Shown here one piece after another: positions 564-37,846 of a stretch of 64,000 nt of DNA. A program made the translations under genes and the position numbers. The notes under the pieces were generated by a model. That model had not been told where the DNA came from, did not search any database, and saw only the letters and a program-made list of their open reading frames with translations. Origin of the DNA: Corynebacterium propinquum DSM 44285 (GTDB lineage: Bacteria > Actinomycetota > Actinomycetes > Mycobacteriales > Mycobacteriaceae); NCBI RefSeq assembly GCF_000375525.1, contig NZ_AQXC01000003.1, forward strand, positions 124,001 to 188,000, written 5' to 3'. How positions within the stretch are numbered: position 1 is the stretch's first letter; each line of letters begins with the position of its first letter.

Positions 564-1889
564 CTAGCCCAATAATGCGAGAGGAACAACTGCGCATCCG
601 TCGGCACGCCGATACGCATGACTTCCCGTGGTGACCACGATTTTGTCGACAAGCCGGGAACCAAGTTGTTCCCCCAACCAATTCAGATGCCGCACGTCGC
701 GGTCTGTGGGGACCGGGTTGAGTTTAACCTCAAAAGCAATGACCTTGCCGTCGTAACGCTCCAGAATCAGATCGACTTCTCTGCTTCCGCCTTGCAACCG
801 CAGGTGTGCTGTCTCTGCCTCGGCTGCCTGGCCGGCTGCGCGAACCGTCAGGGTAACCAAAGATTCAAACAGCTGACCGAACAGCTCCCAGCTGCCCGGA
901 TCACGCGAGACCAACATTTCTGCTGTGACGCCCAGCAAGGCTGCTGCGATTCCCGGATCAAAAATCTGATGTTTGGGCCCTACGGTCAGGCGTTTCAACG
1001 GCGTGCGGTTCGGGTGCCACGCCGGAACGGGATCAAGCAACCAAAGTTTCTGGAGCATATCGCGGTAGCCCTGGGCGGTTTCTTTGGAAGTTTTGTTGCT
1101 GTCTCCTGCCGTCGCCGCATCGAGTATTTTGTTGTATGCCGTCGGCGTCGACGATGCTGCAGCGTAGGCGCGCCACCAGGCCCGCAAGGATTCCGGTTTG
1201 CGCACCAATAGTCCTTGCTCCGGAATATCGCGGTCAATCACCCGGTGGATATAAGACGCTACGTGCTGCCTGCGGGCGCGCGGCGGCAGCGTGCAGATGC
1301 CCGGCAGCCCGGTCGAACAAATAGCTTCGGCGTAATCGGTCAACTGCCAATCGGTTGCACCACTAATTTCTGCGCGGGAATCATTGTTCTGCTCGAATAG
1401 TTCCGCTATCCGGACGCTAGGCTGCGTGTTGTCGCGTTCTGCCACCGATAGCGGGCGCATGCGCAATGACAGAATCCGACCTGCACCGGAGTGCGTGTCG
1501 ACGCCACTTGTGGGGGTAGCGCTACCAGTCAGCAAATACCTGGTAGCCACGTGCTTATCGACGTTGCGCCGCACCGCGTCCCACACCTGCGGGACATGTT
1601 GCCACTCATCTAGACAAATTGTGCCTGGACCCTGCAAGATGTTATCCATCTGGGCGTAGAGCAATTCGCGCTCGTTATCCCGGTCTAGATGCCAGGTTTC
1701 ATCTGCACGACGGATGCTGGTTTCGGACTTGCCGACGCCTTTTGCCCCATCGATCGCGATCGCTGTCAGACCATCCAGTGCTTCCAGTTCGTCATCGATG
1801 TAGCGCCAAAGGTAGTTCTTTGTGTTGCTTGTTTTGGCGCTGCTACTTGAATTTTCGTGGCCGTCTGATTGATACCCGCTAAGAGCCAT
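564..1889 (-). CDS. DUF4143-type AAA ATPase
   Basis: A 441-residue protein of the large AAA_14/DUF4143 ATPase family, whose cellular role is not settled. Walker A is GAKGVGKS (about 48-55), Walker B is ICLDEWQ (about 91-97), and a sensor-like LTGSAT follows near 120. The C-terminal domain has VDLI followed by FEVKL (about 372-389), the D...ExK layout of a PD-(D/E)XK nuclease-like fold. The first 25 residues are Ser/Asn-rich and probably disordered. The ATG start lies 29 bp from an array of GTTTATC-type repeats with 23-bp spacing (1918-2028). It is about the same length as the second ATPase at 35796-37046 and shares its domain order. It is convergent with galK and divergent from panD. Function unknown; anti-invader, toxin-like or regulatory roles are all possible. 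Confidence 0.8.
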   Translation of the reverse strand: MALSGYQSDGHENSSSSAKTSNTKNYLWRYIDDELEALDGLTAIAIDGAKGVGKSETSIRRADETWHLDRDNERELLYAQMDNILQGPGTICLDEWQHVPQVWDAVRRNVDKHVATRYLLTGSATPTSGVDTHSGAGRILSLRMRPLSVAERDNTQPSVRIAELFEQNNDSRAEISGATDWQLTDYAEAICSTGLPGICTLPPRARRQHVASYIHRVIDRDIPEQGLLVRKPESLRAWWRAYAAASSTPTAYNKILDAATAGDSNKTSKETAQGYRDMLQKLWLLDPVPAWHPNRTPLKRLTVGPKHQIFDPGIAAALLGVTAEMLVSRDPGSWELFGQLFESLVTLTVRAAGQAAEAETAHLRLQGGSREVDLILERYDGKVIAFEVKLNPVPTDRDVRHLNWLGEQLGSRLVDKIVVTTGSHAYRRADGCAVVPLALLG

Positions 1890-1917
1890 GACCTCGATAT
1901 TAGCACTGAACCCGACT

Positions 1918-2028
1918 GTTTATCACGGATCTACTAGTCTATTTATCGCTTTTCTACCCGACCATTCATCATCCCATTAGCACGCCGTTTATCACGCCGT
2001 TTATCACGCCTTTATCCGACCGTTTATC
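1918..2028. repeat. Phased short-repeat array upstream of the DUF4143 ATPase
   Basis: Seven copies of a GTTTATC-like word start at 1918, 1941, 1964, 1987, 1999, 2010 and 2022. The spacings are 23, 23, 23, 12, 11 and 12 bp, so the pattern is a 23-bp period that becomes a half period at the panD end. Four copies are exact GTTTATC (1918, 1987, 1999, 2022); the others are ATTTATC, ATTCATC and CTTTATC. The fullest unit reads CACGCCGTTTATC. The array fills the divergent space between the ATPase and panD. A period of 23 is not a multiple of three, so it is not coding. It looks like a set of protein-binding iterons or a repeated leader element of the ATPase mRNA. Confidence 0.75.
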
Positions 2029-35795: not shown

Positions 35796-37046
35796 TTATT
35801 CCCCCAGCACAGTCAGCGGGACGACGATGACACCGTCGTCTCGGCGGTACGCCAGGCCGCTCGGGACCACCACGACGAGTGCTTCCGGCGGCCGGATGAT
35901 TTTTGCGCTGACGCGTAACAAGTTTTCCGCCGCTGCATCGATGGCGTGCTGGCCAAGTTTCACCTCACACCCGATCCACGCACCATCGGCTGCTTCCACA
36001 ACCGCGTCGATTTCATCCCGGCCTTTCGCATCACGGTAATGAAAAACCCCGCGCGCTTTATTTTTTTGCGTATACACTCGCAAGTCATGGACCACCTGGC
36101 TTTCAAATAAAAATCCGAGAGACTCGGGCTCTGCCAATAATCGATCGGTATTCGCCCCGAGTAGTGCGGCTGCCAGCGAAGGATCGCACAAGTGCCGCTT
36201 CGGTGTTTGTAATGCGGCAGTCCGTGAACGCAGTTTTGGTGCCCAGGCTGGTTGATCCTCGGTTAAAAACATACGCTCTGCGAAATCATGTAGCGCCGAT
36301 GGCGCAGTTTCGCCGATGGGCAGTGCCGCAGCATCATTCATCCTGCGGCCAATCGCACTAAAAGTAGCAGGTTGCGCCGATAAACCAGCGATCGCCTCCA
36401 GAAACGCGCGGATCCGACGTGGATCCCGGCGCGGACCAGCAACAGAAGGAAAATCGTGCTCACACGTGTCGTCAAGATACGAGTGGTTCATCTCTACTGC
36501 GGCCTCGTGCGACATATTCAAAGCGCCCGGCCAGCCACCTCGGACAACACGCGCGATGAGTTCGGAAAAATCACGTTCCGATTCCGCGATCGCAGGTGAT
36601 TCCCCGCGCAATAACGCCCCCAAAGAAACCTCCCCGGTGGAATCGCCAGTTTCCTGCAGCGTCATCGTCCGCATGCGCAAGCGACGAAACCGCCCCGCCC
36701 CAGAATGGCGCATTGGATGCTCATCGGGAGTAGCGGAACCAGTCAATAAAAATTGCCCTGCTTGCCGACGACGGTCCACCTCGTGGCGCACTTCATTCCA
36801 CACTTCCGGCACTACTTGCCACTCGTCCAGCAAGCGCGGAGTTTCGCCGTGCAGCGCGGTGGCGGGTTGTTCGCGCGCAAGCACTGCCCGTTTATCTGCA
36901 GAATCGAGATAAATTTGGGAAGCCGAAAACTGCGAGGCGCTTTCGGTTTTCCCGCAAGCACGTGGACCTGCGATCACTACGGCCGGCGCAGACTCCAGCG
37001 CCGTCGAAATTGACTGGTCAAGATGGCGTTTTTGATAATCATGCAC
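35796..37046 (-). CDS. Second DUF4143-type AAA ATPase
   Basis: A 416-residue AAA_14/DUF4143 protein. Walker A is GPRACGKT (27-34), Walker B RLLDEWQ (71-77) and the sensor-like LLTGSATP near 100. The C-terminal domain has DEIDAVVEAADG followed by GCEVKLG, a PD-(D/E)XK-like D...ExK set. It ends in RRDDGVIVVPLTVLGE, very close to the end of the protein at 564 (RRADGCAVVPLALLG). The start is GTG 37046. An array of ATTTCTCC repeats with 23-bp spacing lies 25-101 bp upstream (37071-37147). Function unknown. Confidence 0.82.
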   Translation of the reverse strand: MHDYQKRHLDQSISTALESAPAVVIAGPRACGKTESASQFSASQIYLDSADKRAVLAREQPATALHGETPRLLDEWQVVPEVWNEVRHEVDRRRQAGQFLLTGSATPDEHPMRHSGAGRFRRLRMRTMTLQETGDSTGEVSLGALLRGESPAIAESERDFSELIARVVRGGWPGALNMSHEAAVEMNHSYLDDTCEHDFPSVAGPRRDPRRIRAFLEAIAGLSAQPATFSAIGRRMNDAAALPIGETAPSALHDFAERMFLTEDQPAWAPKLRSRTAALQTPKRHLCDPSLAAALLGANTDRLLAEPESLGFLFESQVVHDLRVYTQKNKARGVFHYRDAKGRDEIDAVVEAADGAWIGCEVKLGQHAIDAAAENLLRVSAKIIRPPEALVVVVPSGLAYRRDDGVIVVPLTVLGE

Positions 37047-37070
37047 ACCCCCAGCCTAGCAGCCTGCGGC

Positions 37071-37147
37071 ATTTCTCCACTTCTGCCTACTGGATTTCTC
37101 CATCATTGGGTAATGGATTTCTCCACCAGAAGGTGCGGCATTTTTCC
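37071..37147. repeat. 23-bp-phased repeat array upstream of the second DUF4143 ATPase
   Basis: ATTTCTCC starts at 37071, 37094 and 37117, and the variant ATTTTTCC at 37140, so the spacing is exactly 23 bp three times. On the ATPase strand the units read as GGAGAAAT. Two inner units are flanked by GG and A (GGATTTCTCCA); the outer units have GGC before the word. The bases between units differ, so this is a regularly spaced motif rather than a simple tandem repeat. It sits where the array of the first ATPase sits. Confidence 0.75.
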
Positions 37148-37148
37148 A
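37100..37148. repeat. Left copy of a 49-bp direct repeat
   Basis: Matches 37798-37846 with one difference (CCACCAGAAGG against CCACCTGAAGG). It overlaps the second half of the repeat array of the ATPase and lies 698 bp from its partner. Confidence 0.85.
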
Positions 37149-37182
37149 CACATCAGCCGCAGTTACGTCAGGTCGATTCCAG

Positions 37183-37225: not shown

Positions 37226-37609
37226 CTATACACTTGAGTTATTATTCCGCGATTCTTCCTCGGACAGTTTCTTGCCAAATGATCGTGTCTTGTACTCGCG
37301 CAGCAACACCAGGACCACGGCGCCAATTACAAAACCTAGGCCAACTGTCTGAGTAATTCCCCAGACATCAAAAATTGACAGTGCTTGCAAAATGCAGCCT
37401 GCGAGCACTATGCCAAGTGTATTACTGGAATGAGGAATAGGGTTTCGTACCAAGTACAACAGAACCGCGGCTGCTAAAGCGAATACCAAAAGGTTTTCAA
37501 AATTCAGACCACCCCCAAAAACCGTTGCCAGCATTAAAAACAAAATTAGACAAGCAACGAAGAGTGACTGTTTTCGAACTTTTTCATGCTCTACATCATG
37601 CTTGCGCAT
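37226..37609 (-). CDS. Small four-helix membrane protein, unknown
   Basis: A 127-residue frame with about four predicted membrane helices (SLFVACLILFLMLATVF, LLVFALAAAVLLYLV, LGIVLAGCILQALSIF, TVGLGFVIGAVVLVLL), a charged N-terminus and a charged C-terminal tail (EEESRNNNSSV). I do not recognise a family. It lies between the two copies of the 49-bp direct repeat. Its base composition is more A+T-rich than the genes around it. It could be an accessory gene that arrived with the repeat. Confidence 0.55.
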   Translation of the reverse strand: MRKHDVEHEKVRKQSLFVACLILFLMLATVFGGGLNFENLLVFALAAAVLLYLVRNPIPHSSNTLGIVLAGCILQALSIFDVWGITQTVGLGFVIGAVVLVLLREYKTRSFGKKLSEEESRNNNSSV

Positions 37610-37797
37610 GCATCTACCTGTGCGTACCTGTAAACTGCGTACACTATCGAAGACCTAGTCACAGAGGAAAATGCGGCCACTATAATTCGAGGAAACAGAG
37701 ACCGCATAATCACTACCCTTGCGTTAGTCACTTACGTTCATGATAATCACCAAAGTACCCAATGACTCATGTCGCGCCAACACCTTTCGTCTGAGAT

Positions 37798-37846
37798 CCA
37801 TCATTGGGTAATGGATTTCTCCACCTGAAGGTGCGGCATTTTTCCA
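37798..37846. repeat. Right copy of the 49-bp direct repeat
   Basis: Holds two of the phased words (ATTTCTCC at 37815 and ATTTTTCC at 37838, again 23 bp apart). No ATPase gene follows it; the neighbour is the VOC protein gene, which ends at 37874. Confidence 0.85.

Follow-up and report, generated by a model that had tools for sequence, protein, structure and literature searches.

ATPases that combine an AAA_14 domain with a DUF4143 domain make up the candidate defence system PDC-S01, which we take to be the same as COG1373. PDC-S01 is reported to be the fourth most common defence across all prokaryotes, and validation by experiment is pending for most such candidates (PMC12988326). The ATPases described here have the same domains, and the available part of the PDC-S01 description makes no mention of an array, an operator or a recognition code; the words promoter, direct repeat, iteron and autoregul are absent from the main text of that paper. 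No upstream array was described in the accessible parts of the literature on DUF4143, PDC-S01 and COG1373, and a literature search for 23 bp repeats upstream of an AAA ATPase found nothing, with preprints and most subscription journals outside the scope of both.

Other systems share single features with the array-bearing ATPases. Plasmid Rep proteins and ParR/parC combine oriented tandem repeats, at a promoter beside the gene of the protein that binds them, with autoregulation. The array ATPases resemble such iteron systems in having oriented tandem repeats at their own promoter (66 of 76 forward, with -10-like boxes) and differ from Rep and ParR/parC in their make-up, a STAND-like ATPase joined to a nuclease-like domain, and in that no replication or partition role was seen. 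MalT, which acts at repeated sites and regulates other genes, and IniR are, like the array ATPases, STAND-type ATPases acting on promoter DNA; we know of no nuclease domain in either, and of no private array for each of their paralogues. IniR is described as having an ATPase domain like that of SSO1545 and as able to bind the iniBAC promoter; unlike the array ATPases, it carries its DNA-binding domain separately at the C-terminus and controls other genes (PMC5760070). The archaeal AAA+ proteins SSO1545 (2fna) and PABY2304 (2qen), CED-4 and the plant NLRs share with the DUF4143 ATPases a P-loop ATPase followed by a winged helix; unlike in proteins of the SSO1545/CED-4 type, the winged helix of the DUF4143 ATPases seems to recognise specific DNA and is followed by a nuclease-like domain. 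Type III toxin–antitoxin systems differ in their enzyme, as no toxin of the ToxN/AbiQ kind was found in Pfam and PADLOC scans of the ATPases studied here. Finally, published induction data exist for a single homologue, Thermus TT_P0211. We presume it to be TT_RS11170; this gene, the only match to the subfamily model (see below) in a 46.6 kb stretch, falls outside the subfamily and has no array. Because this presumed same gene lacks an array, the induction of TT_P0211 says nothing on the array.

We analysed a 64 000 nt stretch of the Corynebacterium propinquum DSM 44285 genome (the window), which contains the following features:

564–1889, minus strand: first AAA_14 and DUF4143 ATPase, P0002, 441 aa (Pfam, PADLOC)
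1916–2017, minus strand: array of P0002, with words at 1916, 1939, 1962, 1985 and 2008, 23 bp apart
35796–37046, minus strand: AAA_14 and DUF4143 ATPase P0001, 416 aa (Pfam PF13173 and PF13635; PADLOC PDC-S01, 1e-69), laid out as AAA+ domain, winged helix (residues ~209–286) and PD-(D/E)XK-like C-terminal domain (alignment and AlphaFold model)
37053–37058, minus strand: candidate -10 box TAGGCT (gene strand), picked by eye, between the array and the GTG start
37065–37149, minus strand: array of P0001, four 23 bp units (repeat search and four-copy scoring), with 10 bp words at 37071–37080, 37094–37103, 37117–37126 and 37140–37149
37226–37609, minus strand: small ORF, 127 aa, no assigned family, between the two array copies
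37797–37846, minus strand: 50 bp near-copy (one mismatch) of 37099–37148, half of the P0001 array

The first-pass annotation had placed words at 37071, 37094, 37117 and 37140, 25 bp before the gene. A repeat search of the window confirmed the four copies, with spacings of exactly 23, 23 and 23 bp, and 24 bp (37047–37070) separate the array from the GTG start at 37046, the earlier distance being right within 1 bp. On the gene strand the words read GTGGAGAAAT, ATGGAGAAAT, GTGGAGAAAT and GTGGAAAAAT. The four-copy score of the array was 38 of 40, against at most 30 at period 23 in 2000 first-order Markov shuffles (480 bp) and at most 31 in shuffles scored at any period from 11 to 44 (n=300). GGMATTTYTCCA occurs six times in the host genome, three of them at the P0001 locus; the word pair of the array gave 0 matches in the viral contigs that were searched. 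The genes scanned with Pfam around P0001 have a metabolic look and do not resemble a defence island. The closest named relative found for this genome is Corynebacterium pseudodiphtheriticum, with 96% protein identity.

This 2.46 Mb genome has three DUF4143 genes, all over the cut-off in a profile search, and an exact 23 bp array is found at all three. Both domains of the window proteins exceed their Pfam cut-offs (P0001, DUF4143 96.9 bits and AAA_14 49.8 bits; P0002, 92.6 and 44.6 bits), and the PADLOC PDC-S01 model PDLC04790 matches the three ATPases at 1e-69, 7.5e-73 and 2.6e-68. At the third locus (L003, outside the window) the words start at 2605, 2628, 2651 and 2674 of that locus, again in 23 bp steps. 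The earlier observation that each window ATPase has its own word in a constant geometry held, the 23 bp steps recurring at 1916–2008. Its description of the two loci as unrelated did not, as the two genes are homologues and their words have in common the CAAAT core seen throughout the family. The P0002 array also contains extra, out-of-phase words at 1997 and 2020, 12 bp past regular copies.

The 23 bp array is a trait of the family. DUF4143 genes were present in 74 of the 151 genomes of the genus, in up to 11 copies per genome. For 128 distinct Corynebacterium genes, we scanned a 480 bp region, from 520 to 40 bp ahead of the Walker A codons, at periods of 11–44; the best four-copy period was 23 in 92.5 of the 128 homologues, 22 in 9.5 and any other in at most 4.3. 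A score of 33 was reached by 79 of the 128 genes at 23 bp and by 10 at 22 bp, and by none of the simple shuffles of these upstreams (periods 20–25). The best period was also 23 in 18.6 of 57 order-level loci and 28.9 of 62 phylum-level loci, both sets including array-less subfamilies; like the Corynebacterium sample, these two started from Pfam DUF4143 and not from a profile of array-bearing proteins. In a set of 90 upstreams, drawn both from viral contigs and from named genomes across many phyla (Methanobrevibacter included), 23 was best in 81.5, a sample that was picked by likeness to array-bearing proteins, and hence is not random, and that counts L261, a duplicate of L257 left out from the unit alignment onward. 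Among further new genes the figure was 99.2 of 129. Proteins repeated near Walker A, loci with too little upstream DNA and proteins in which no Walker A could be recognised (7 of 141) were left out of the counts.

We defined a subfamily as proteins scoring at least 400 bits against a profile of array-bearing proteins, which is hence not a random sample. With three-copy detection, 23 was the best period in 285.8 of its 312 members, only 157 of which reached a strong three-copy score; copy number centred on three to five units (59, 61 and 25 of the 157). Scored for four copies at 23 bp, the 312 genes had 226 strong arrays, 39 weak and 47 none, and the 129 genes below 400 bits had 30 strong arrays, 10 with 22 bp, 6 weak and 83 none. 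The upstream of a Prevotellaceae gene (L303) carries a run of 13 units, far above the usual number.

All ten strong 22 bp arrays (L013, L014, L015, L016, L020, L021, L023, L025, L029 and L206) belong to a single 22-gene clade (support 0.997); of its other members, five have 23 bp and seven have no array. Spacing thus largely goes with the protein. One member of the clade, L020, has eight identical words at 22 bp steps. Arrays are absent from all 26 genes of the clade with L242, L243 and L235, and from 20 of the 25 genes of the clade with L182 and L190; array-less DUF4143 subfamilies may be controlled otherwise. Array-bearing ATPases are present on IMG/VR contigs classed as viral (L254–L260), and phages or mobile elements may therefore carry the array–ATPase cassette. 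Among ATPase_2 (PF01637) genes from the order of Methanobrevibacter, a very small sample of 3 loci (3 of 40 genomes), 23 bp was not the best period.

Strong arrays were all but confined to DUF4143 genes. In ~1 Mb comprising the loci and the window we found 61 distinct strong 23 bp arrays, 60 of them at DUF4143 genes. The 252 kb made up of DUF4143 genes and the 700 bp upstream of each gave 61 records, equal to 60 distinct arrays, one array being common to the overlapping loci L052 and L065. The remaining 747 kb held a single strong 23 bp array, abutting a DUF4143 remnant. The first-pass annotation had named arrays equally common before unrelated genes as a finding that would speak against it; none was strong at 23 bp, the sole outside match being the one at this remnant. 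Strong 22 bp arrays in the same ~1 Mb numbered seven inside the DUF4143 regions and one outside. The periods of strong arrays at DUF4143 genes were 23 (61 records), 22 (seven) and 44 (two), with no other in the range 13–44. At the remnant locus (L062, 1987–2340) the DUF4143 ATPase is cut down to its C-terminus and the full 23 bp array still stands in front of it.

The words of the two window ATPases had been described as sharing no sequence. They are in fact related, all being diverged forms of a single oriented element whose core is CAAAT. Arrays aligned without reference to their proteins gave a single oriented 23 bp unit, from 75 arrays and again from 153, with AAA at its start, CAAAT in columns 9–13 and TA at 21–22 (the register of the window array was one base apart between the two fits). 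Agreement within arrays was 0.84–0.90 in columns 6–19, 0.83 in column 21, 0.77 in column 20 and 0.64–0.76 in the rest; between arrays, information was at most 0.75 bit per column (153 arrays). The forward orientation scored higher in 66 of 76 held-out arrays.

Word similarity rose with protein identity, from 0.37–0.38 below 25% identity to 0.89 at 90% or more (Mantel test, 0/1000 among 77 representatives), a trend that is not telling alone because descent could give the same. Paralogues within one genome carry different words (86 pairs from the 29 genomes with assignable loci; here and in the next comparison, genome membership was recorded manually and covers some of the loci), and below 50% identity they are as different as pairs from different genomes. 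The proposal that words confer a separate identity within one genome was not supported as the product of selection: 19 paralogue pairs with 55–97% identity had a mean word match of 0.50, against 0.54 in matched between-genome pairs, and 469 of 5000 matched samples were as low. A first comparison in favour of enforced divergence (0.386 in 14 pairs against 0.571) was no longer significant once register slip was allowed for and identity was matched.

The AlphaFold model of P0001 (pLDDT 92.9, pTM 0.93) is best read as a STAND-like ATPase that has a winged helix within its chain, followed by a PD-(D/E)XK-like domain. In the model, the winged helix comprises helices 209–221, 229–240 and 248–258 (the recognition helix) and a wing at 262–286. 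Residues 246–247 cap the recognition helix (N-cap), residue 277 lies between the wing strands, and residues 340–341 lie between two strands of the nuclease-like domain, next to the catalytic-type motif. VIA-align gave Z 15.1 to 2qen (PABY2304; 5.1 Å over 257), Z 14.3 to 2fna (SSO1545; 4.9 Å over 256) and Z ~12 to CED-4 and plant NLRs, with the structural matches mostly within residues 1–327; the part matching the archaeal ATPases spans residues 1–297. Foldseek whole-chain TM-scores were low: 0.44 to 2qen, and 0.27 to origin-bound Cdc6/Orc1, which ranked first. The nuclease-like domain, modelled as strands 333–339, 345–351 and 357–362 and helix 366–382, is barely covered by whole-model structural matches; a catalytic motif of the PD-(D/E)XK type (E/D...D...ExK) is present. 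G27, G32, K33, D74, E75 and R119 are found in 229 of 229 aligned rows, and E345, D347, E361 and K363 in 227, 226, 224 and 226 of them. Family proteins are likely to have ATPase and nuclease activity, because these residues are kept. A sequence search for a solved relative gave weak matches only (best E 0.0047, over the P-loop), and NCBIfam and PHROGs scans of the ATPases gave one chance-level ClpA match and otherwise nothing.

The words co-vary with the ATPase type, as had been predicted, down to single residue–base pairs. We used arrays scoring at least 34 with 23 as best period, 153 of 335 upstreams and then 76 of 129; the held-out set was the 26 of the 76 arrays whose proteins shared less than 60% identity with each protein of the training set. 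To deal with phylogeny we relied on weighting, on close pairs and on the held-out arrays. The first mutual-information scan placed residue 246 with base 15 on top (Z 9.1; maximum of six permutations 6.5), and the prediction for residue 246 was written down before the new loci were fetched. In the 26 held-out arrays, R at 246 went with G in 9/9, K with G in 5/6 and other residues with G in 3/11; R went with T14 in 7/9. Two parts of the code were rejected, E with C (0/3 held-out arrays) and P with A (1/3).

With all 229 arrays combined, 246 × 15 (Z 11.06) and 277 × 8 (Z 8.58) were the only two pairs above the maximum of 60 permutations (7.01), and five pairs exceeded the mean permutation maximum (5.28). 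The next pairs were 247 × 16 (6.67), 247 × 17 (6.20), 340 × 7 (5.66), 341 × 6 (5.24) and 340 × 8 (5.21). The top seven of ~9400 pairs all fall at residues 246–247, 277 and 340–341, in three stretches amounting to 26 of 407 positions. The covarying residues lie in the winged helix and a nuclease-domain loop, not at the N-terminus, where the first-pass annotation had looked for the reading part. In weighted counts at 246 × 15, R went with G in 26.6 of 28.2 and K with G in 10.3 of 13.3; at 247, E went mostly with C and Q with A, and at 341, D or N with C. Such residue–base chemistry (R/K to G, E to C, Q to A, D/N to C) is textbook.

Thirty-six disjoint close pairs (at least 50% identity outside the recognition helix) differed in having R/K at 246: G15 was found in the R/K member only in 28, in both in five, in neither in three and reversed in none. 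With distant pairs added (n=94), the counts were 78, 10, 5 and 1. On the held-out arrays the whole code scored +1.96 bits per array, against -1.60 (sd 0.53) with shuffled partners (0/5000), and, for 21 of the 26 proteins, put the cognate array in the top quarter; random other residues matched it in 0/300. Single pairs that held were 246 × 15 and 277 × 8 (0/2000 each), 340 × 8 (1/2000), 247 × 16 (2/2000), 246 × 14 (18/2000) and 247 × 17 (21/2000), while 341 × 6 (89/2000) and 340 × 7 (383/2000) were unconfirmed on these data. The three ATPases of this genome, which belonged to the training set, fit the code (E246/C15, K246/G15 and K246/G15; all four units of each array used, 153-array register).

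The last unit has its core a median of 54 bp upstream of a conserved tyrosine near the protein start. Boxes of the -10-like pattern TANNNT, assigned by pattern, were enriched +16 to +19 from this core (22.3 weighted against 6.4 shuffled), with a further excess at +28 (5.1 against 1.4); the highest single peak, at +11 (9.6 against 1.6), falls on the unit's own TA. Since -10-like boxes sit 16–19 bp past the core, the last unit tends to cover the -35 region. The position of the array fits an operator, with modest promoter evidence. Boxes such as TATATTTG or TATAAT could be seen by eye ~17 bp after the core at several loci of Bacteroidota and Clostridia.

We consider it probable that the STAND-like ATPase–nuclease encoded behind the array binds its units as a tandem series of sites at the promoter of its own gene. 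Direct binding of the array by its own ATPase is inferred from sequence and is well supported by the covariation. N-cap residues 246–247 of the recognition helix would read bases 14–17, and wing residue 277 and the loop 340–341 beside the nuclease motif would read bases 6–8, the shared AAA core of the protein lying between the two base-reading contacts. One subunit would bind each 23 bp unit, with successive subunits head to tail in a single orientation, and the ATPase may oligomerise on the array. By this reading the ATPase on the array would control expression of its own gene. Repression is the simplest direction of control and most likely, because the last unit covers the -35 region. Such autoregulation would suit a putative role in virus defence, in which the array holds a dangerous nuclease low or locked until infection; a defence role fits the patchy occurrence of the family and its up to 11 copies per genome. 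A more elaborate version, which we put forward tentatively and hold to be doubtful, is that the residue-to-base code ties each ATPase–nuclease to a private ladder of sites at its promoter, where three to five subunits line up head to tail in a complex that is locked yet poised. Such a ladder would serve as operator, stoichiometry counter and mark of self-identity, letting many nucleases coexist in one genome without cross-talk, and its loss or occupation would release or arm the nuclease.

The arrays might instead be bound by another host regulator, the ATPase gene being merely its target, and their place at the promoter is that of ordinary operators. We regard this as very improbable: paralogues in one genome carry different words (the 86 pairs above), near-identical proteins share them, the bases track residues of the ATPase's own winged helix, and no strong 23 bp array was seen at other genes in the ~1 Mb searched. 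The ATPase could also read the array mainly as a loading or assembly scaffold, or as a target of its nuclease, and not as an operator. Covariation of loop 340–341 with bases 6–8 (340 × 8 on held-out data), almost invariant catalytic residues, a copy number centred on three to five, and an insertion in the window flanked by a 50 bp duplication with both ends at the same repeat position all point this way, but the insertion is a single case and the position of the last unit relative to the -10-like boxes fits transcription control, which makes such a main role unlikely.

That the repeats act as RNA, like those restraining the downstream enzyme in type III toxin–antitoxin systems, is suggested by their tandem layout just ahead of, and on the same strand as, the gene of an enzyme. 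We give this idea very little credence, as the bases vary in step with a DNA-binding domain, at its recognition helix and wing, within-array conservation peaks at columns 6–19 and 21 instead of spanning the whole unit, and -10-like boxes are enriched between array and start; in addition, the window ATPases match AAA_14/DUF4143 and PDC-S01 and no toxN-type family in Pfam and PADLOC. Chance or descent, with ordinary tandem duplications and a covariation that is phylogeny, would account for the fall of word similarity with protein identity. It would leave unexplained array scores beyond the reach of shuffles, the confinement of strong arrays at DUF4143 genes to periods 23, 22 and 44 (range 13–44), and a covariation that clusters at three DNA-facing loops, persists in disjoint close pairs and held-out arrays and fails for random residues; its likelihood appears close to negligible.

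Tandem binding sites for the encoded ATPase would give PDC-S01 an element in cis, a surface that probably reads DNA and a residue-to-base code expressed in numbers. The array separates an array-bearing subfamily from array-less relatives, and the code lets the cognate site be ranked from the protein sequence. The array also hints at how a STAND nuclease with toxic potential may be restrained and, if this reading is true, the family would constitute a natural set of orthogonal operator–regulator pairs.

Half of the P0001 array is duplicated in the window. The near-copy at 37797–37846 lies further upstream of the gene, separated from its counterpart (37099–37148) by 648 bp, and both ends of the 50 bp duplication fall at the same TCCA of the repeat. 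At the C. pseudodiphtheriticum locus (L262) the insert is absent and the array comes soon after the neighbouring gene. The duplication may reflect an insertion into the array or a break within it, and the ORF at 37226–37609 may have come with the insertion.
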